Source of the DNA: an uncultured Oscillospiraceae bacterium
GTDB lineage: Bacteria > Bacillota > Clostridia > Oscillospirales > Oscillospiraceae
Direction: 5' to 3'
Length of the DNA: 42,422 nucleotides
Assembly: GCA_947626265.1 (NCBI GenBank)
Contig: CANQRM010000024.1
Location: 1 to 42,422, forward strand
Shown: positions 25,815 through 33,561 of the stretch, piece by piece
Layout: each line of letters starts with the position of its first letter
Position numbering within the stretch: the first letter of the stretch is position 1
The notes under the pieces: generated by a model
The model's database searches: none
What the model was told of the DNA's origin: nothing
Seen by the model: only the letters and a program-made list of their open reading frames with translations
Translations under genes and position numbers: made by a program

Positions 25815-26039
25815 TCACTCCCCCGGGTTGGGGCGGATGACCTTCTGGAAGTTCCAGGTCATGGCGGCGCGGCGGGCGGCGTCCCGGCGCTCCTCCTCGG
25901 TCTTATAGCTGAGCTCCGCGGTATGGGCGCCGCAGTCCAGGCACTGGACGTACACGCACCATCCGCCCTCCTCCTCGATGCATCCCACGCCGCCGCAGGC
26001 GGGGCAGGCTGCCAGGTCGATATCGTCAAATTGGTCCAT
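25815..26039 (-). CDS. Lar-like restriction-alleviation family zinc-ribbon protein
   Basis: 74 residues. CPACGG (about 12-17) and VQCLDCGAHT (about 33-42) form a four-Cys zinc ribbon, followed by a helix ending AARRAAMTWNFQK, the Ala-rich then Trp-Asn pattern of the Lar family. Prototype Lar from the Rac prophage relieves type I restriction. Most chromosomal members have no tested role and many are phage-derived. The ATG at 26039 is chosen for AAGGAGA 8 nt upstream; the frame is open further. It has its own consensus-like promoter and a terminator. No restriction or phage genes are nearby. Confidence 0.7.
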   Translation of the reverse strand: MDQFDDIDLAACPACGGVGCIEEEGGWCVYVQCLDCGAHTAELSYKTEEERRDAARRAAMTWNFQKVIRPNPGE

Positions 26040-26082
26040 ACGGGGTCTCTCCTTCATATCACATTCTGCGGTGTTCCCCCTG

Positions 26083-26111
26083 ATTTTATACGACCGCCGC
26101 CTCTTTGTCAA
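26083..26111 (-). promoter_or_regulatory. Promoter of the Lar-like gene
   Basis: Minus strand TTGACA (26111-26106), 17-nt spacer, TAAAAT (26088-26083), 44 nt before the ATG. Confidence 0.75.
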
Positions 26112-26163
26112 TCGCCCATGACGCACGAACGCCCCGCCTCCCGGCGGGGTGTTTAACTTTATT

Positions 26164-26297
26164 GGCCGCCCTATGCCAGTCTGACGCCCGGCGGGAGCCG
26201 GCAGTGTGCCGGATGCGGTTGGTGAGCGAAGCGAACTTTAGCAGCAGGCATACTGCCGGGCCCGTCCGGGCTATACTGACATTGTTCTTGGGCGGCC
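26164..26297. repeat. Imperfect palindromic element with 8-bp inverted ends
   Basis: GGCCGCCC (26164-26171) and GGGCGGCC (26290-26297) bound a 134-bp stretch whose arms also mirror each other (CAGT...GCCCGG against CCGGGC...CTGA). Smaller internal hairpins (CCGGCA/TGCCGG) flank a GTGAGCGAAGCGAAC core. No ORF fits. The layout suggests a MITE- or REP-like element or a structured RNA. A CCTCCCTC/GAGGGAGG hairpin follows at about 26305-26324. Confidence 0.5.
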
Positions 26298-26335
26298 GCG
26301 CCACCTCCCTCGTCAGAGGGAGGCTTATTACCGCC

Positions 26336-27181
26336 TTACGCGCTTTCCCACCCCACGACCAGCTGCTCTTCCTCCATCTGCCGCTCCAGGGCCTGGTCCA
26401 CGAGCATGGCGATATTGTCCTCGATGGCCTTGCGCCCGGCCAGATACAGCCGCCGCAGGCACCGGGGGCTTCCCTTCTCCACGCTCACCTGCGCCAGGGC
26501 GCACAGGTCCCGTATGGACGCGGTGACAGAGGACCGGTTCATGGCCGCGCCCTCCCGGGTGCGGAACACCGGCCCGCGGTATATGCCATTTCTCTCGGCG
26601 AAGGCGAGCATCTCCTCACAGAGGCACCGGGGCAGGCGGATATTTTTCCGGCTCTTCCCCTCGCCCACGGTCACCTGGCCGGTCTTCACGGCCTCCACGG
26701 TGACCTTCTCCAGCTCCTGCACGGGCAGGTCCGCGCTGGCGAACAGCTTCACCAGCAGATACGTCTTCTCCCGGTCCAGCAGCCGCGCCACCTGCAGAAG
26801 GTGCTTATACTCGGCCCGCGTCAGCTCCGGCGGCAGCTTTTCCTCCGCCGGGAGGGTGTCCCGGGCCTGATACTCCCTGTGGCCCATATACGCCACGTAG
26901 GAGTTGGCGGCGGAGACGGTGACGTTCACGCTCCGGGGGGCGCATCCAGCCTTGATGAGCGCGTCCCGGCACTGCTCCAGGGTGCCCCGGCGTATCCGCC
27001 CGTCCTCGGGCAGGACCTCTGCCAGGCGCTCCAGGCTCCGCCGGTAGCGCTCCACGGTCTCCGGGGCCCGGCCTCTGGCCGTCATATCCGCCAGAAAGCC
27101 CTCCATGTCCCCGGCAGTCATGGCGACGCCTATATCATGCTGTCCGGCCCTGGGGGCACGTCTGATCTCCATCGTATCCAT
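26336..27181 (-). CDS. Degenerate tyrosine recombinase-like protein, catalytic residues lost
   Basis: 281 residues, homologous along most of its length to the complete recombinase at 30716-31552. Both share ELTRAEYKHLL against ELKRWEYEKLV, and RGPVFRTREG against SGPVFLSRQG. The N-terminal core-binding domain (about 20-105) is intact. The catalytic domain has Pro153 where the first Arg should be, R240-C-L-R243 in place of HxxR, and no GH...Y tail; it ends QLVVGWESA. It cannot be an active recombinase but may still bind DNA or the active paralog. It lies just downstream of the surface-protein gene behind a terminator. The ATG at 27181 has only a modest AAAGGCGG. Confidence 0.8.
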   Translation of the reverse strand: MDTMEIRRAPRAGQHDIGVAMTAGDMEGFLADMTARGRAPETVERYRRSLERLAEVLPEDGRIRRGTLEQCRDALIKAGCAPRSVNVTVSAANSYVAYMGHREYQARDTLPAEEKLPPELTRAEYKHLLQVARLLDREKTYLLVKLFASADLPVQELEKVTVEAVKTGQVTVGEGKSRKNIRLPRCLCEEMLAFAERNGIYRGPVFRTREGAAMNRSSVTASIRDLCALAQVSVEKGSPRCLRRLYLAGRKAIEDNIAMLVDQALERQMEEEQLVVGWESA

Positions 27182-27198
27182 GACTTCACCGCCTTTCT

Positions 27199-27229
27199 AA
27201 AAAAGGAGGGCAGGGGATATCCCCTGCCC
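27199..27229 (-). terminator. Terminator of the surface-protein gene
   Basis: Minus strand: GGGCAGGGG-ATAT-CCCCTGCCC perfect 9-bp stem, then TCCTTTTTTAG. Confidence 0.88.
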
Positions 27230-27262
27230 CCCGTTGGGTATTGCTATTGAGTTTGGTCTAAC

Positions 27263-30200
27263 TTACTTGACCCAAGTGGTGCCGTTCCAGTTGCCCAGCA
27301 GCTTGGACCAAGTGCACTTACCGGACTCGCCGTTCTTCTTGCTGAAGTAGCACTCGCCGTACTGGCCGCCGACCCACTGGTAGCCGGTCAGCATCTTGCC
27401 GATCTCACCCTTGGTGTTGGTGGGCTGCAGGAAGTACCAGCCGTAGCCGCCGTGCAGGTCGTCGATGTACTGCATGCCGGTCAGCATCTTGCCGTCCGCG
27501 CCCACATAGTACCAGTTGCTGTCCCACTGAGAGGCGCCGTCGATCTTGCCGACCCAGTAGTTGGAGACCAGCTTGCCGTTCTTGAAGAAGTACCACTCGT
27601 TGTTGTAGTAGTTCCAGCCAGTGCCGGAGGCAGGAGCCTTCGGGCCTTCGGGCTCATCAGGCTTGACCTTGACCAGTTTCGCGAGAGCCGCGTCCAGAGC
27701 GGCCTTAGCGGCATCCACAGCGGCCTGGGTAGCATCCTCGTTGGCAGCCACGGTCTTGGCAGCCGCAAGGGCAGTGTCGATAGCGGTCTTGTTGGCGGCC
27801 CAGGACTCGGGCGTGTAGTCAGCCTCGACCAGAGCCTTCGCGTCGGCGATGGCCTTGTTCAGGGCAGTCTTATCGACCTCGCCCTCCTTGGTCAGGCCGT
27901 TGAGGGCCGCCTGCAGCTTTGCCACGTAGGCATCGACCTCGGACTGCAGAGAGGCGTCGGTGGGCTTGGAGGTGCTGTTGTAGATGTCGTCCAGAGCCCA
28001 GTAGGAATCGAAGGTGTACTCATCGTCGCCCTCGGCCAGCTTATCCTTCGCCTGGTTCAGCAGCGTGTTCATCGTGGTCAGATCGGCAGTCTTCGTCTGC
28101 AGATAGCCGCAGACCTCGAGCATGCCCTTCAGAGTGTCGATGACGTACTGCTGGTTGTACTTGGAGTTGGCATAGGTGGAGCCGGTGAGATAGGTCCTAA
28201 TGGTGCTGATGTCGGCATTGATGGTTTGGAAAGCCTTCGCGACGGACTCAACGTCGTTACGGTTGTTCTTCACCTTGTCGTAGTCGCTCTGCACCAGGTC
28301 CTCGGCCAGGTCGAGCCAGGCGTTGATGGCCGCAACGGACTTCCAGGAGGACAGAGGTTTGACCTCCAGCATGACGGAGTGCTGCTCCACATAGTCGGTC
28401 TCATGTCCAGAGTAACTATTAGAGTTGACGGTGTTGACCATCAGCGCCACCTTCACAGTGCTGCCGGCCACCAGATACTCGTCGTTGGACGGGGTGATCG
28501 TCACGTCATTAGCAGCGGAAGCCGCGCTGCTGCCGATCTCTTTCTTGTTGGAGCCGGACACGATGACCATGTTTTTAGCATAGTTGGTCATGTCGCCGGA
28601 CATCTTGACCGTGATCGTCGCATCACCGGGATTGGTCGCAGTAAGAGAGATCGGGGAAGAGAGGTTCGTCAGCTTCTGGTTGTAAGTGGGAGCGGTAACG
28701 CTGCCGTCGGGATAATCGCTGACCTTGGCCTCCTTGATGATGGGGCCGTTGTACTCTTTGCTGACAGTGATGGTCTGGCTGGTGAAGTAATGATCCTCGC
28801 CACTCACATAGAGGTAGACGGTGATCTTCTCCTTGTTGGCCCACTCACTCCTGGCAGTGCCGTCCTTGCTGCCGAACTCACCAAGGGTGTAAGTGTTGAT
28901 GTACTTGTTGGGATACTTCGTCTGATCGGCGCCAGTCCAAGTGGCGTTCAGACTTACTTTCGTCGCAGTGGTCTCGCTGGCTTTGTTGGTCTCGCCGGAG
29001 TTATACCACTCGTCGCCGCACTTGAAGGTGACCTCGTACTGGTTGCCGTCGAGGTTGGTCCCGTCGGCCGTGAGACTGCTAGTCTTGTCGCCTTCAACGT
29101 TCAGTACGGAGAAAATGATATCAAGATCGCCGTCACTATTCAGCGTCCAGCTCTCGATCTTCAGGGTCTCGTCCTTGCGGACAAGGGCGTTCTCCAGGTC
29201 TTCGATAGCATTGGCGCAGGCATAATTAGTCGCGCTGGTCTTGAAACCGTTCAGGCCCTGGCCCCTATCCTTCAGGCCGTTGGCCACGCCGATGAGCGCC
29301 TGGATCTGAGCGCTGGTCTTCTTCAGTGCATAATTATCGGCCTTATAATTGCCGGCAAGAGCGCTCTCAGCGTTGGCAATGGCACGGTTCAGAGCGGTCA
29401 AGTCGGACTCCGCAGGACGGGAGGCCTTCGCCTCCATCTCCAGCGCGTCGAGCACAGCCGTCAGAGCGGCGCTGTACTGCGCATAAGTGTCGCCGGTGGA
29501 AGGATAGCTGTTCACCAAGTCGATGGCCTTCTTCAGCGCGGTCAGGTACTCGGTCTTGTAGGCCTTCGTCCAGGCGGCGTTCTTGGTCACGTCGATGCTG
29601 GCGGTAAAAATCGTACTCGCGCTAAGAGCGGCGCTCGCAGTGGTGTCGCTCGTATAGCTGTGCGCAGCATTGTTCGTGATCAGAGCCTTCAGAATGGTAT
29701 CGGTCATGTTGGTGCCGCCGGCAGCCTTGGTGAGCTGATTAGAATTGGTGGCGGTGCCATCTGCCTTGGGCATGACATTCGACAGCGCGGTCGCAGCATT
29801 CTGGACTTCGGAAGTGGTCACATCGTAATTCACTACCTTGCCGTCCACAGCTTCCAGCATCTCTTTGGCCGCGTCGTACTTCTCCAGGAAGTCCTTAGTA
29901 GCGCCCTCAAGAGGATCCTCGTCGGGATCGTACTTGTCCCAATCGATGGCGCTGGTAGTGGCATAACCATCCCAATCCTTATCGGTGTACACGCCGGCCT
30001 TCACGTCGTCCATGATCTTGTCGGCCTTCTGCACGGCGTCATACAGATCCCAGTGGGCTTCCTTGGACACGACGCCCAGCTTTACCAGCAGGGGCAGGTC
30101 CTCGGCGTCCTCGGGCAGGATGGAGGCCATCTCGGGCTCGTCTTCGACGGCCTCGGGAGCCTCCTCGGCGGCGGGCTCGTCAACGACGGGCTCCTCCGCG

Positions 30201-30364
30201 GGTTCCTCAGCCTCGGGAGCTACAGGAGCTTCAGGGGCCTCGGGTGCCTGCTCCTCAACTTCGGTCACAGCCTCTGCCGCGAAATCGTCAGCCGCAAGGG
30301 CCGGGACGCACAGAGACAGAGTCATGACCAGCGCCAGAAGCAGGCTGAGCATACGTTTCGTCAT
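27263..30364 (-). CDS. Large secreted cell-surface protein with FIVAR-like and cell-wall-binding repeats
   Basis: 1033 residues. Sec signal (1-24, cleavage after PALA). A Glu/Pro/Ala-rich spacer (about 25-80) precedes a long mixed region with Ala-rich helical FIVAR-like stretches (about 280-400 and 720-915, e.g. ALNKAIADAKALVEADYTP) and Ser/Thr-rich beta-type segments in the middle. The C-terminal about 110 residues are aromatic choline/glucan-binding-type repeats (NEWYFFKNGKLV, NWYYVGADGKMLTG, YGWYFLQP) that attach proteins non-covalently to the cell wall. There is no LPXTG motif. TTAGGAGG lies 10 nt before the ATG. No promoter lies between the ATG and the invertible segment, so expression should depend on that segment's orientation. 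Confidence 0.85.
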   Translation of the reverse strand: MTKRMLSLLLALVMTLSLCVPALAADDFAAEAVTEVEEQAPEAPEAPVAPEAEEPAEEPVVDEPAAEEAPEAVEDEPEMASILPEDAEDLPLLVKLGVVSKEAHWDLYDAVQKADKIMDDVKAGVYTDKDWDGYATTSAIDWDKYDPDEDPLEGATKDFLEKYDAAKEMLEAVDGKVVNYDVTTSEVQNAATALSNVMPKADGTATNSNQLTKAAGGTNMTDTILKALITNNAAHSYTSDTTASAALSASTIFTASIDVTKNAAWTKAYKTEYLTALKKAIDLVNSYPSTGDTYAQYSAALTAVLDALEMEAKASRPAESDLTALNRAIANAESALAGNYKADNYALKKTSAQIQALIGVANGLKDRGQGLNGFKTSATNYACANAIEDLENALVRKDETLKIESWTLNSDGDLDIIFSVLNVEGDKTSSLTADGTNLDGNQYEVTFKCGDEWYNSGETNKASETTATKVSLNATWTGADQTKYPNKYINTYTLGEFGSKDGTARSEWANKEKITVYLYVSGEDHYFTSQTITVSKEYNGPIIKEAKVSDYPDGSVTAPTYNQKLTNLSSPISLTATNPGDATITVKMSGDMTNYAKNMVIVSGSNKKEIGSSAASAANDVTITPSNDEYLVAGSTVKVALMVNTVNSNSYSGHETDYVEQHSVMLEVKPLSSWKSVAAINAWLDLAEDLVQSDYDKVKNNRNDVESVAKAFQTINADISTIRTYLTGSTYANSKYNQQYVIDTLKGMLEVCGYLQTKTADLTTMNTLLNQAKDKLAEGDDEYTFDSYWALDDIYNSTSKPTDASLQSEVDAYVAKLQAALNGLTKEGEVDKTALNKAIADAKALVEADYTPESWAANKTAIDTALAAAKTVAANEDATQAAVDAAKAALDAALAKLVKVKPDEPEGPKAPASGTGWNYYNNEWYFFKNGKLVSNYWVGKIDGASQWDSNWYYVGADGKMLTGMQYIDDLHGGYGWYFLQPTNTKGEIGKMLTGYQWVGGQYGECYFSKKNGESGKCTWSKLLGNWNGTTWVK

Positions 30365-30409
30365 TGTCTCTTATCCTCCTAAGATAAATATTTTCGAGCC
30401 CTCCATCGC

Positions 30410-30429
30410 ACCACAGACTTCACATTCTG
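30410..30429 (+). repeat. Left inverted repeat of the switch
   Basis: ACCACAGACTTCACATTCTG. It matches the reverse complement of the right repeat at 19 of 20 positions, the exception being C at position 9. It is also imperfectly palindromic internally (CAGA...TCTG). Confidence 0.85.
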
Positions 30430-30456
30430 CATGCCATCGGCCCTCGCCGGACCCGG

Positions 30457-30483
30457 AAAAAGGGCGATAAACGCGTGATCGCC
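30457..30483 (-). terminator. Terminator-like hairpin inside the switch, facing the surface gene
   Basis: Minus strand: GGCGAT-CACGCGTTT-ATCGCC followed by CTTTTTCC. In the present orientation it would block read-through into the surface-protein gene. Confidence 0.55.
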
Positions 30484-30599
30484 GGGAAACCGCCTCTTTC
30501 CGGCCCTCCAAAAGGGCATGGCAAAGCCGCCTGCGGCCCCAAATCGGGGTTACAGGCTGCTCCGCTATGTAAAAAAATAAAGTTTTTTTGAATTTCCTC

Positions 30600-30628
30600 T
30601 TGCTTTTTTCGCCCCGGGAGCTTATAAT
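30600..30628 (+). promoter_or_regulatory. Promoter inside the invertible segment, pointing away from the surface gene
   Basis: TTGCTT (30600-30605), 17-nt spacer, perfect TATAAT (30623-30628). After inversion it would face the gene at 30364. Confidence 0.75.
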
Positions 30629-30672
30629 CGTCAACGTAAAGTTGGGCTCAAAGGAAGTTTCTTCCGGGTTCG

Positions 30673-30709
30673 TACCACAGAATGTGAATTCTGTGGTATC
30701 TTTGTTTTT
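30673..30709 (+). terminator. Perfect palindrome and T-run at the right switch edge
   Basis: TACCACAGAAT-GTGA-ATTCTGTGGTA followed by TCTTTGTTTTT. The palindrome contains the right inverted repeat, while the T-run lies outside the segment. It should therefore terminate rightward transcription now but would lose its T-run partner for the promoter after inversion. Confidence 0.7.
30678..30697 (-). repeat. Right inverted repeat of the switch
   Basis: The reverse complement reads ACCACAGAATTCACATTCTG, 19/20 identical to the left repeat. The short arms and central spacer resemble tyrosine-recombinase core sites. Confidence 0.85.
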
Positions 30710-30715
30710 ATACCT

Positions 30716-31552
30716 TTATAATAAAAGCGGCAGGGCCTCCATCTGCGCCCGCTGTTCGGTGAAGGAGCGGATGGTGTAGATGCGCGTCGTCTCGATGCTG
30801 CTGTGGCCCAGGATGTCCGCCAGGCGCAGAAGGTCCTTGTATACCTTATAATATGTCCGGGCGAACAGGTGCCGCAGGTTGTGGGGAAACACCTTCCCCG
30901 GCGCCACCCCCGCCCGCTTTGCCAGCCGTTTCATGGCCTTCCAGATGTTGCTCCGGTCCATGGGCCCGCCCTGACGGCTCAAAAATACCGGTCCGGACGC
31001 GATATTCATCTTTTTGCAGTATTTCAGGAGCGTTTTGCATAATTTTCCGGGCAAAACGATGGTCCGGCGCTTTCCTTTGCATATTATTTCAGCCTGTCCG
31101 GCCCGCAAACTTTCCGCCGTGATGGCGGAAACTTCGCTCACACGCACCCCCGTGGCCGCCAAAGTTTGCAGCAGCAGCGCCAGCCGCTCGTCCCCCTCCG
31201 CGAGAGCTTTATGCACGAGCTTTTCATACTCCCACCGCTTGAGTTCCCGGCTCGGGTCCGCGAAATTCCGGCGCTGTACCCGCAGGAACCGCAAACGCCA
31301 TTCATCGTATCCACAAAAATGCAAAAACATATTCACCGCCGCCAGGACCCCGTTTACGGTCCCGGCGGCCCGCTTTTCCGCCCCCAATGCCTCCTTGAAG
31401 GCCAGGAGCGTGGTCTTGTCATGGACCTCGCCCCCGGCGAAGGCGAGGAGCCTGTCCACCGCCCGGGCGTATTTGGCGACGGTGGCGGGCCCCAGCTCCC
31501 GTTCTATCATGTGGTCGCGGAACGCCTCCGCCGCGTGTTTGTCGATGTTCAT
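30716..31552 (-). CDS. Tyrosine recombinase/integrase, catalytically complete
   Basis: 278 residues. N-terminal core-binding domain (about 5-95) and catalytic domain (about 100-278). The full catalytic set is visible: Arg137 in ATGVRVSEV, Lys near 159-161 in CKGKRR, His224/Arg227 in PHNLRHLF, His250 in GHSS, nucleophile Tyr259 in TTRIYT. The frame is open to 31636, but the ATG at 31552 is preceded by AAAGGAGG. No excision partner, relaxase or phage genes are nearby, so it looks like a local DNA-inversion enzyme such as RecV/FimB types. It is separated by 19 bp from the inverted-repeat segment, its likely substrate. A homologous but dead copy lies beyond the surface gene. Confidence 0.92.
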   Translation of the reverse strand: MNIDKHAAEAFRDHMIERELGPATVAKYARAVDRLLAFAGGEVHDKTTLLAFKEALGAEKRAAGTVNGVLAAVNMFLHFCGYDEWRLRFLRVQRRNFADPSRELKRWEYEKLVHKALAEGDERLALLLQTLAATGVRVSEVSAITAESLRAGQAEIICKGKRRTIVLPGKLCKTLLKYCKKMNIASGPVFLSRQGGPMDRSNIWKAMKRLAKRAGVAPGKVFPHNLRHLFARTYYKVYKDLLRLADILGHSSIETTRIYTIRSFTEQRAQMEALPLLL

Positions 31553-31616
31553 TCGTATTCCCTCCTTTTTTCCCATATTGTCCACACCGGGCGGAGATAA
31601 TACAAATTTGGCGACA

Positions 31617-31648
31617 TAAAACCGCCTCCCCATCAAAGGGGAGGCGGT
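31617..31648 (-). terminator. Terminator after the GH51 gene
   Basis: An 11-bp stem ACCGCCTCCCC / GGGGAGGCGGT with a six-base loop and TTTTATG on the minus-strand side. Confidence 0.75.
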
Positions 31649-31669
31649 ATATTCATTTGACGGGCGGCC

Positions 31670-33214
<1,545 letters not shown>

Positions 33215-33220
33215 TTAGCG

Positions 33221-33254
33221 AAAACCCCGCGATCCGTTGGGATCACGGGGTTTT
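33221..33254 (-). terminator. Terminator of the tRNA-Asp/tRNA-Thr unit
   Basis: AAAACCCCG-C-GATC / GATC-A-CGGGGTTTT stem with one mismatch, beginning 4 bp past the tRNA-Thr CCA. Four T at each end. Confidence 0.85.
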
Positions 33255-33258
33255 CTTT

Positions 33259-33334
33259 TGGAGCTGCTGGGCAGATTCGGACTGCCGACCTCGTCATTAC
33301 CAATGACGCGCTCTACCGACTGAGCTACAGCAGC
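33259..33334 (-). tRNA. tRNA-Thr (GGU)
   Basis: Acceptor GCTGCTG / CAGCAGC, D-arm GCTC...GAGC, anticodon stem CGTCA/TGACG with loop TTGGTAA (anticodon GGT), T-arm with TTCGAATC-like loop (read here as TCCGAAT), discriminator T and encoded CCA. Its 5' end directly abuts the CCA of tRNA-Asp. Confidence 0.95.
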
Positions 33335-33411
33335 TGGCGACCGAGAAGGGACTTGAACCCTCGACCTCCGGCGTGACAGGCCGGCGTTCTAACCGACTGA
33401 ACTACCCGGCC
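33335..33411 (-). tRNA. tRNA-Asp (GUC)
   Basis: Acceptor GGCCGGG / CTCGGTC, D-arm GTTC...GAAC, anticodon stem CCGGC/GCCGG with loop CTGTCAC (anticodon GTC), T-arm GAGGG-TTCAAGT-CCCTT, discriminator G and encoded CCA. Confidence 0.95.
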
Positions 33412-33441
33412 GCGAAACATCGCTTGCTCGCGAGCTTTTTG

Positions 33442-33470
33442 ATTATACAGATTTCTGCCCGGCCTGTCAA
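33442..33470 (-). promoter_or_regulatory. Promoter of the tRNA-Asp/tRNA-Thr unit
   Basis: Minus strand TTGACA (33470-33465), 17-nt spacer, TATAAT (33447-33442): a perfect sigma-A consensus, 30 nt before tRNA-Asp. Confidence 0.92.
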
Positions 33471-33561
33471 GACTATTTTCGCCCCAGGCCCGTTTTTTCT
33501 TGCCAAAACCGCCCCCGCCGGGGCCAATGGTTAACCAATTCTTAATATTCGTAATTTTTTG

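Follow-up and report, generated by a model that had tools for sequence, protein, structure and literature searches.

A candidate self-contained promoter-inversion cassette with dif-like sites and a catalytically dead recombinase paralog in an uncultured Oscillospiraceae bacterium

The locus lies in a 42,422-nt stretch of DNA, the whole of which was analysed and is called the window here. The minus strand reads, in order, an intact tyrosine recombinase gene, a short segment bounded by inverted repeats, a gene for a secreted surface protein, and a paralog of the recombinase that lacks catalytic residues (Table 1). We label the intact recombinase RecA-type and the paralog RecB-type; these labels are our own, and the former does not denote the RecA of homologous recombination. 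The preliminary description of this DNA had reported 20-bp inverted repeats with 19 of 20 positions matching, 248 bp apart, and we recovered the same coordinates and match. It had also placed a complete tyrosine recombinase gene 19 bp away; the reading frame is indeed intact, running on the minus strand from an ATG at 31552 to a stop codon at 30716–30718, and the gap to the right arm is 18 nt. The right arm is a real repeat, but its earlier account was incomplete, as the arm belongs to a 24-bp palindromic site and to a terminator-like hairpin with a T-rich tail. This site has a dif-like layout, in which palindromic 10-bp arms flank an asymmetric 4-bp spacer. In the gene-side site the last four bases of the inner half, GTGG, are missing, which could lower the activity of that site. 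No known structured RNA was found in the leader or the OFF transcript, the region 26000–33500 holding only two tRNAs, and neither the surface protein nor either recombinase in the window gave a PADLOC defence match.

Table 1 Features of the candidate inversion cassette in the window
Feature	Position	Strand	Description
RecB-type gene	26336..27181	-	281-aa paralog of the tyrosine recombinase, lacking the catalytic His and Tyr; predicted fold of a tyrosine recombinase
Terminator-like hairpin, gap between surface gene and RecB-type gene	27205..27232	-	Similar one, by eye, in 12/12 gaps of other cassettes
Surface protein gene	27263..30364	-	1033 aa, secreted; conserved signal peptide, variable middle, FIVAR-like domain
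Ribosome-binding site of surface gene	30375..30380	-	AGGAGG, 10 nt upstream of start 30364
Left arm / right arm	30410-30429 / 30678-30697	inverted	19/20 match, 248 nt between
Gene-side site	30410..30433		Same spacer in inverted orientation; part of the inner half degenerate
Putative invertible segment	30430..30677		248 bp, bounded by 20-nt arms
Predicted promoter	30600..30628	+	TTGCTT 30600-30605, 17-nt spacer, TATAAT 30623-30628; OFF orientation
Terminator-like hairpin, site plus T-rich tract beside recombinase gene	30672..30709	+	12-bp stem, -16.6 kcal/mol, z -5.3
Recombinase-side site	30674..30697		24 bp, ACCACAGAAT-TCAC-ATTCTGTGGT on minus strand, 0 mismatches to family pattern
RecA-type gene	30719..31552	-	Xer-like tyrosine recombinase, 278 aa; Pfam Phage_integrase E 8.5e-25

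The RecA-type protein carries the complete catalytic set of Arg, Lys, His-x-x-Arg, His and Tyr. Specifically, R137, K159, H224, R227, H250 and Y259, which we take to fill these catalytic roles from what is known of the family, are invariant among 14 aligned relatives. The protein is closest to the Xer models (XerA, XerD), with a best score of 127.2 bits against a cut-off of 220, and stays below the curated cut-offs of the named equivalogs XerC, XerD and XerA.

The cassette recurs within the same genome. In its 3.2 Mb and 77 contigs (genome G000 in the contig names below), we found seven RecA-type genes, that of the window included, with E values below 1e-78. Contigs C17 and C36 repeat the architecture of the window with related surface proteins, the C36 promoter pointing toward its gene. 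C23 shows the same design with a TTGACA-17-TATAAT promoter, a 2074-aa DUF7601/Cna_B protein and a recombinase interrupted by one in-frame stop, and the C60 contig ends just ahead of its gene's start codon. Five cassettes of this genome account for all 7 sites matching the 24-bp pattern, each beside such a recombinase; the sites of C12 and C6/C11, also adjacent to a recombinase, have diverged too far for the pattern to detect. A search of this genome for orphan invertons without a recombinase, run with the 24-bp pattern at up to three mismatches, returned recombinase-linked sites only, more diverged sites escaping such a search. By eye, the C36 locus (L007, G000:C36, 2004-6392) stands beside conjugation-like genes, among them those for an 808-aa VirB4-like ATPase and a 648-aa protein; judging by these neighbours, the cassette may sit on an integrative element.

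Relatives carry the same arrangement. Within the genus a relative at E <= 1e-60 is present in 20 of 35 genomes, the own genome included, and in a class-wide draw of 291 genomes from 181 genera, 47 and 35, respectively, had the recombinase (E <= 1e-75). A repeat pair matching at 18 or more of 20 positions within 500 nt downstream of the recombinase was found in 39/56 genus records (the other 17/56 having no such pair), 65/76 records of the genome_contigs set and 24/26 class loci, the class set comprising 29 fetched loci of which three had short flanks. The same search upstream of the recombinase, used as a control, gave 0/7, 0/77 and 0/28, and dinucleotide shuffles of the genus and genome_contigs sets gave 0/660. 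The arrangement is thus beyond chance, since it is absent both upstream and in the 660 shuffles. These sets are not fully separate: genus contigs reappear as nine of the genome_contigs records, and of the 24 class pairs 20 are distinct, the other four having segments already counted. The nine repeated records were kept in the repeat-pair and RecB-type counts and left out of the T-tract, promoter and consensus counts. Viral contigs added 18 loci with RecA-type relatives and one with a RecB-type relative; on the contig of the latter (L252, IMGVR_UViG_2831971958_000011), a RecA-type and a RecB-type gene lie about 430 nt apart and are followed by a 412-aa ORF. The host probably inhabits the animal gut, as the names of related records suggest.

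For the analysis of the sites, we assembled 113 distinct cassettes with arms of at least 18/20, having dropped the three short-flank class loci, identical inner segments and cassettes below 18/20. Their consensus site reads ACCACATAAT-NNNN-ATTATGTGGT, and the core CATAAT-4-ATTATG is found within two mismatches in 29/36 genus, 41/57 genome_contigs and 18/20 class cassettes; the letters of the site presumably resemble those of E. coli dif. None of the 113 cassettes has a palindromic spacer, and in 100 the two sites share the same one. Its asymmetry (113/113) and its identity at both sites (100/113) are as strand exchange between inverted sites requires. Insulation of paralogs by different spacers was considered as well, and gave no clear signal, identical spacers being found in 2/65 within-genome and 24/565 between-genome pairs.

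The preliminary description had named a TTGCTT-N17-TATAAT promoter inside the segment, and this motif is read on the plus strand between the arms. A consensus promoter scan of 30300-31700 gave no match, because it needs four of six bases in each hexamer and TTGCTT matches TTGACA at three. As the surface gene lies on the minus strand and the promoter on the plus strand, the promoter is directed away from the gene; it faces the recombinase gene, in agreement with the OFF state previously assigned to the assembled sequence. No other promoter is apparent for the neighbouring surface protein. Among relatives, a promoter-like match lies inside the segment in 36/36 genus, 47/57 genome_contigs (absent in 10/57) and 20/20 class cassettes, compared with 37/360, 128/570 and 72/200 shuffles; matches at 11 or more of 12 consensus bases were found in 18, 21 and 13 segments and in 1, 4 and 5 shuffles, respectively.

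The T-tract adjoining the recombinase-side site lies outside the invertible segment. In the genus, at least five T in 10 nt were found outside the recombinase-side site in 30/42 cassettes and outside the gene-side site in 0/42, whereas the same count in the genome_contigs set gave 27/59 and 11/59, an asymmetry much weaker outside the genus. In the window's genus, therefore, the recombination site appears, to judge from its sequence, to double as a terminator of the OFF transcript that would spare the recombinase gene. The leader hairpin of the ON state would be without such a T-tract.

The surface protein had been described as a 1033-residue secreted wall-binding protein with a ribosome site. 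Its length, its signal peptide and the AGGAGG motif bear this out; the wall-binding assignment fares less well, with choline-binding repeats at 16.9 bits against a Pfam gathering score of 27, a FIVAR-like domain at 24.9 bits, under the Pfam cut-off of 29.2, and a weak match to a major autolysin chain (E 0.0092). Thirteen surface proteins of the same type, C36 being left out of the comparison, share 62–97% of the first 40 residues with that of the window and 18–41% of the middle, and the C-terminus is 84–88% identical in C17 and G020:C10 and 32–42% identical in the other eleven. At other segments, the first gene, as picked by a simple ribosome-site rule and annotated for ten hand-chosen proteins, encodes SLH proteins, GGDEF/EAL enzymes, a response regulator, a BTAD regulator, an acyltransferase or a ResIII/HA helicase. 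The helicase case is L143 (1572-3953), where a similar promoter segment precedes a ResIII helicase with HA domains; by eye, the first genes of G032:C1b, G011:C6 and G032:C2 resemble it. The L143 helicase, the only one of its kind scanned, weakly resembles type IV restriction and PbeA in PADLOC, a hint that cassettes of this type might serve phase-variable defence.

Both orientations of a related segment exist between related loci. We compared 13 hand-chosen colinear locus pairs, 12 of them chosen for opposite promoter orientation; 11 aligned best when one inner segment was flipped, and the pair of the window and G011:C14, both OFF, aligned best in the same orientation, as expected. The identity of the window's inner segment to that of G020:C10 is 0.72 flipped and 0.49 in the same orientation, with flanks of 0.83 and 0.89; G020:C10, from the same genus, corresponds to CANQMW010000010.1 of an uncultured Oscillospiraceae bacterium (a 2-kb stretch is identical). 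The window's own paralog G000:C17 gives 0.87 flipped and 0.53 same against G020:C10 (flanks 0.89 and 0.91). The values are 1.00 and 0.58 for G012:C43 against G022:C5, where the upstream side alone was compared and its flank is 0.97, and 0.86 and 0.56 for G011:C1 against G011:C28 within a single genome; these last three pairs are the strongest cases. G012:C5 and G028:C15 are near-equal at 0.58 flipped and 0.57 same. Overall, both promoter orientations occur, those scored - and + numbering 25 and 11 in the genus set, 35 and 12 in the genome_contigs set, and 10 and 10 in the class set.

Assembly breaks at sister or related loci give a second line of observation. A de Bruijn assembler stops where two orientations diverge if both are in the sample, and an assembly made from reads of the two would be expected to leave contig breaks at such points. 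The end of G025:C23 and the start of G025:C5 share a 77-mer that stops exactly where the two arms start to differ. The three paralogous cassettes compared all lack this exact 77-mer, each departing from it at one or two positions, which means that a repeat shared with these paralogs does not account for the branch. Similarly, G012:C43 ends at the last base common to the two outer flanks, the gene-side flank being taken from G022:C5. In the own genome, contigs C6 (with the recombinase) and C11 (with the RecB-type gene) both end in ...AATTGAACT, nine letters that equal the edge in paralog C12, the comparison being made through C12 as the segment itself is missing. Altogether, 6 of the 14 contig ends inspected stop in or at a site and 8 elsewhere. 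For some nearby breaks, near-identical paralogs are the better explanation: G032:C14b, G032:C10 and G024:C40 end a few bases from the recombinase match, where paralog repeats fit better, and were not counted; nor were L285 and L165, which end in or at a site with the other arm unseen.

These flipped inner segments, the recurrence and the assembly breaks uphold the invertible promoter, adjacent recombinase, surface target and OFF state proposed in the preliminary description. Its interpretation stands overall, and it left out the terminator role of the site, the repetition of the cassette and the dead paralog. Inversion at the window locus is strongly supported, its own copy being judged from its relatives. 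We thus put at roughly 90% the probability that the locus is a self-contained phase-variation cassette, in which the neighbouring recombinase flips the 248-bp promoter segment and switches the surface protein ON and OFF. The Xer-type recombinase made from its own gene would pair the two inverted dif-like sites, and strand exchange within their common asymmetric 4-bp spacer would flip the segment. When OFF, the promoter would fire toward the 3' end of the recombinase gene and its transcript would be stopped at the site hairpin and T-tract. When ON, transcription would run into the surface gene through the other site, where a T-tract is lacking, and some read-through would reach the catalytically dead paralog downstream, presumably in this state only.

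The missing GTGG of the gene-side inner half would also suit a relic, that is, a former inversion switch whose copy is now locked OFF through that degenerate site, and decayed or deleted relatives do exist. In seven C60-type sister cassettes (L009, G000:C60, 7791-8240; G020:C3a; L149; G025:C2; G026:C28; G024:C25; G027:C13), the recombinase-side arm is degraded and all promoters, by eye, point toward the gene, so that these copies look as if locked ON. Just past the recombinase gene of G003:C231 (L137), a single chimeric site stands without a promoter segment and resembles, in comparison with G002:C62, the outer halves of two sites, possibly the scar of a site-specific deletion. For the window, however, the recombinase frame is intact with its conserved residues, the spacer is identical in both sites, the surface gene, its ribosome site and the paralog are all intact, and the relative G020:C10 has the flipped form; we consider a relic quite improbable. 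Less probable still is that the repeats are a terminator or attenuator with a chance half copy and no inversion takes place. The right arm does form a good hairpin followed by T-rich sequence, but this leaves aside the second site with its identical spacer, the 113 cassettes with paired sites and the contig breaks at the arms, and the flipped segments of orthologous and paralogous loci already contradict it.

Inversion might instead depend on another recombinase of the genome acting in trans, in the manner of RecV, with the neighbour not being the relevant enzyme; the seven similar recombinases in the genome and the common consensus of the sites are in line with this. Yet the sites found adjoin their own recombinases, as do the diverged sites of C6/C11 and C12, and the linkage of recombinase and repeats holds class-wide. 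Site and recombinase sequences also co-vary, the distances between RecA-type proteins and those between sites giving a Mantel r of 0.196, with 0/1000 permutations as high. An enzyme acting in trans is accordingly unlikely, and the adjacent recombinase is the preferred one; cross-talk among the paralogous recombinases may occur.

The RecB-type paralog is a recurrent companion of this surface-protein type. The positions of H224, H250 and Y259 are lost in 9/9 aligned members and that of the first Arg in 7/9. AlphaFold2 models built from eight sequences have a mean pLDDT of 85.1 and a pTM of 0.55; the best PDB match by E-value is XerA (4.4e-9, with a TM-score near 0.4 and a large rmsd), and the TM-score to lambda integrase reaches 0.59. 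As modelled, the protein keeps the recombinase fold. Of ten pairs, nine have a dN/dS ratio of 0.06-0.46 and one is saturated, so the family is not decaying. The gene stands behind the surface gene in 17/19 comparable genus records of the window's signal-peptide type; G025:C2 and G020:C3a, both with degraded arms, have none within 2.6-2.7 kb past the surface gene. Overall it is present in 40/145 records, a count in which many records are short, nine are repeated and one match is weak (28.5 bits), and none was found in the helicase or Cna_B-type cassettes of this survey. In another branch, the RecB-type gene follows soon after the recombinase and a gap of promoter-segment size, partly as tandem fusions. 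In L034 (C12), L035 (C11), L122 and L128, the recombinase and such a gap are followed immediately by an open frame of about 460-750 aa in which a RecB-type stretch occurs more than once; that of C11 lies at a contig end. At L232 (G022:C3) and L233 (G016:C2), RecB-type genes stand, by eye, beside an oxaloacetate decarboxylase subunit-like gene, with no RecA-type gene in 1.5 kb on either side.

No promoter-like match was found in the gap between the surface gene and the RecB-type gene of the window. We hypothesize that ON-state read-through yields the RecB-type protein and that this protein tunes inversion. More specifically, and tentatively, the dead paralog, without an evident promoter of its own and behind a leaky terminator, might be made mainly in ON, bind the sites or join mixed tetramers with the active enzyme, and so set the ON-to-OFF rate; we hold this fuller scheme possible but doubtful. 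If true, this would add a new kind of component, a dead recombinase that is conserved and regulates inversion in an orientation-coupled way. We found no description of a dead tyrosine recombinase partner in the open-access literature. Conserved beside one type of surface protein, the paralog makes the setting of inversion bias directly testable. More broadly, the recombinase, dif-like site pair and promoter look like a portable module placed before surface, SLH, c-di-GMP, regulator and helicase genes, whose sequence signature would allow ON/OFF genes to be predicted in uncultured bacteria.

Promoter inversion is a textbook phenomenon, and among Clostridia phase variation has been studied best in C. 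difficile. The fim switch uses two active recombinases, FimB and FimE, whereas the window has one intact recombinase and one dead paralog downstream of the target gene. E. coli fimS resembles the window in having its promoter inside the segment and in using tyrosine recombinases (PMC2784873). The same source describes C. difficile cwpV, a cell-wall protein gene with 21-bp imperfect inverted repeats, a 195-bp segment and a tyrosine recombinase, and proposes a terminator in its OFF transcript (PMC2784873). It is thus like the window in its imperfect inverted repeats, tyrosine recombinase, surface target and proposed OFF terminator; in cwpV, however, the promoter is not within the segment and it is the gene's own transcript that the terminator blocks, whereas here the promoter lies inside and a misdirected OFF transcript would be caught (PMC2784873). 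Its recombinase, RecV, acts at several C. difficile switches (PMC5903667), and here there is one recombinase per cassette.

Also close in kind is Clostridia inverton group 139 with invertase group 35, described, in the sections of the source devoted to it, as 33 invertons, 32 of them from Clostridia, nearly all near a tyrosine-type recombinase of one group (PMC11892184). Read-level orientation shifts are given there, including for Intestinimonas butyriciproducens DSM-26588, whose repeats lie about 227 nt apart, against 248 here; those sections mention neither a dead recombinase partner nor a terminator role of the site (PMC11892184). The window's family may be this same group. In two Intestinimonas genomes, neither of them DSM-26588, the published group 139 coordinates were not matched, and the open-access literature held no joint description of inverton, Oscillospiraceae and recombinase. 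With Xer/dif the window shares an Xer-nearest recombinase and a site core, CATAAT-4-ATTATG, in the 6-4-6 palindrome layout given for dif in the relevant part of the source (PMC3025954). The window's family differs in that each cassette has two inverted sites, a genome carries several cassettes, and the predicted outcome is inversion in place of dimer resolution. Compared with these systems, the switch is apparently real and of a known kind, and its new parts are apparently the dead partner and the terminator-coupled site.
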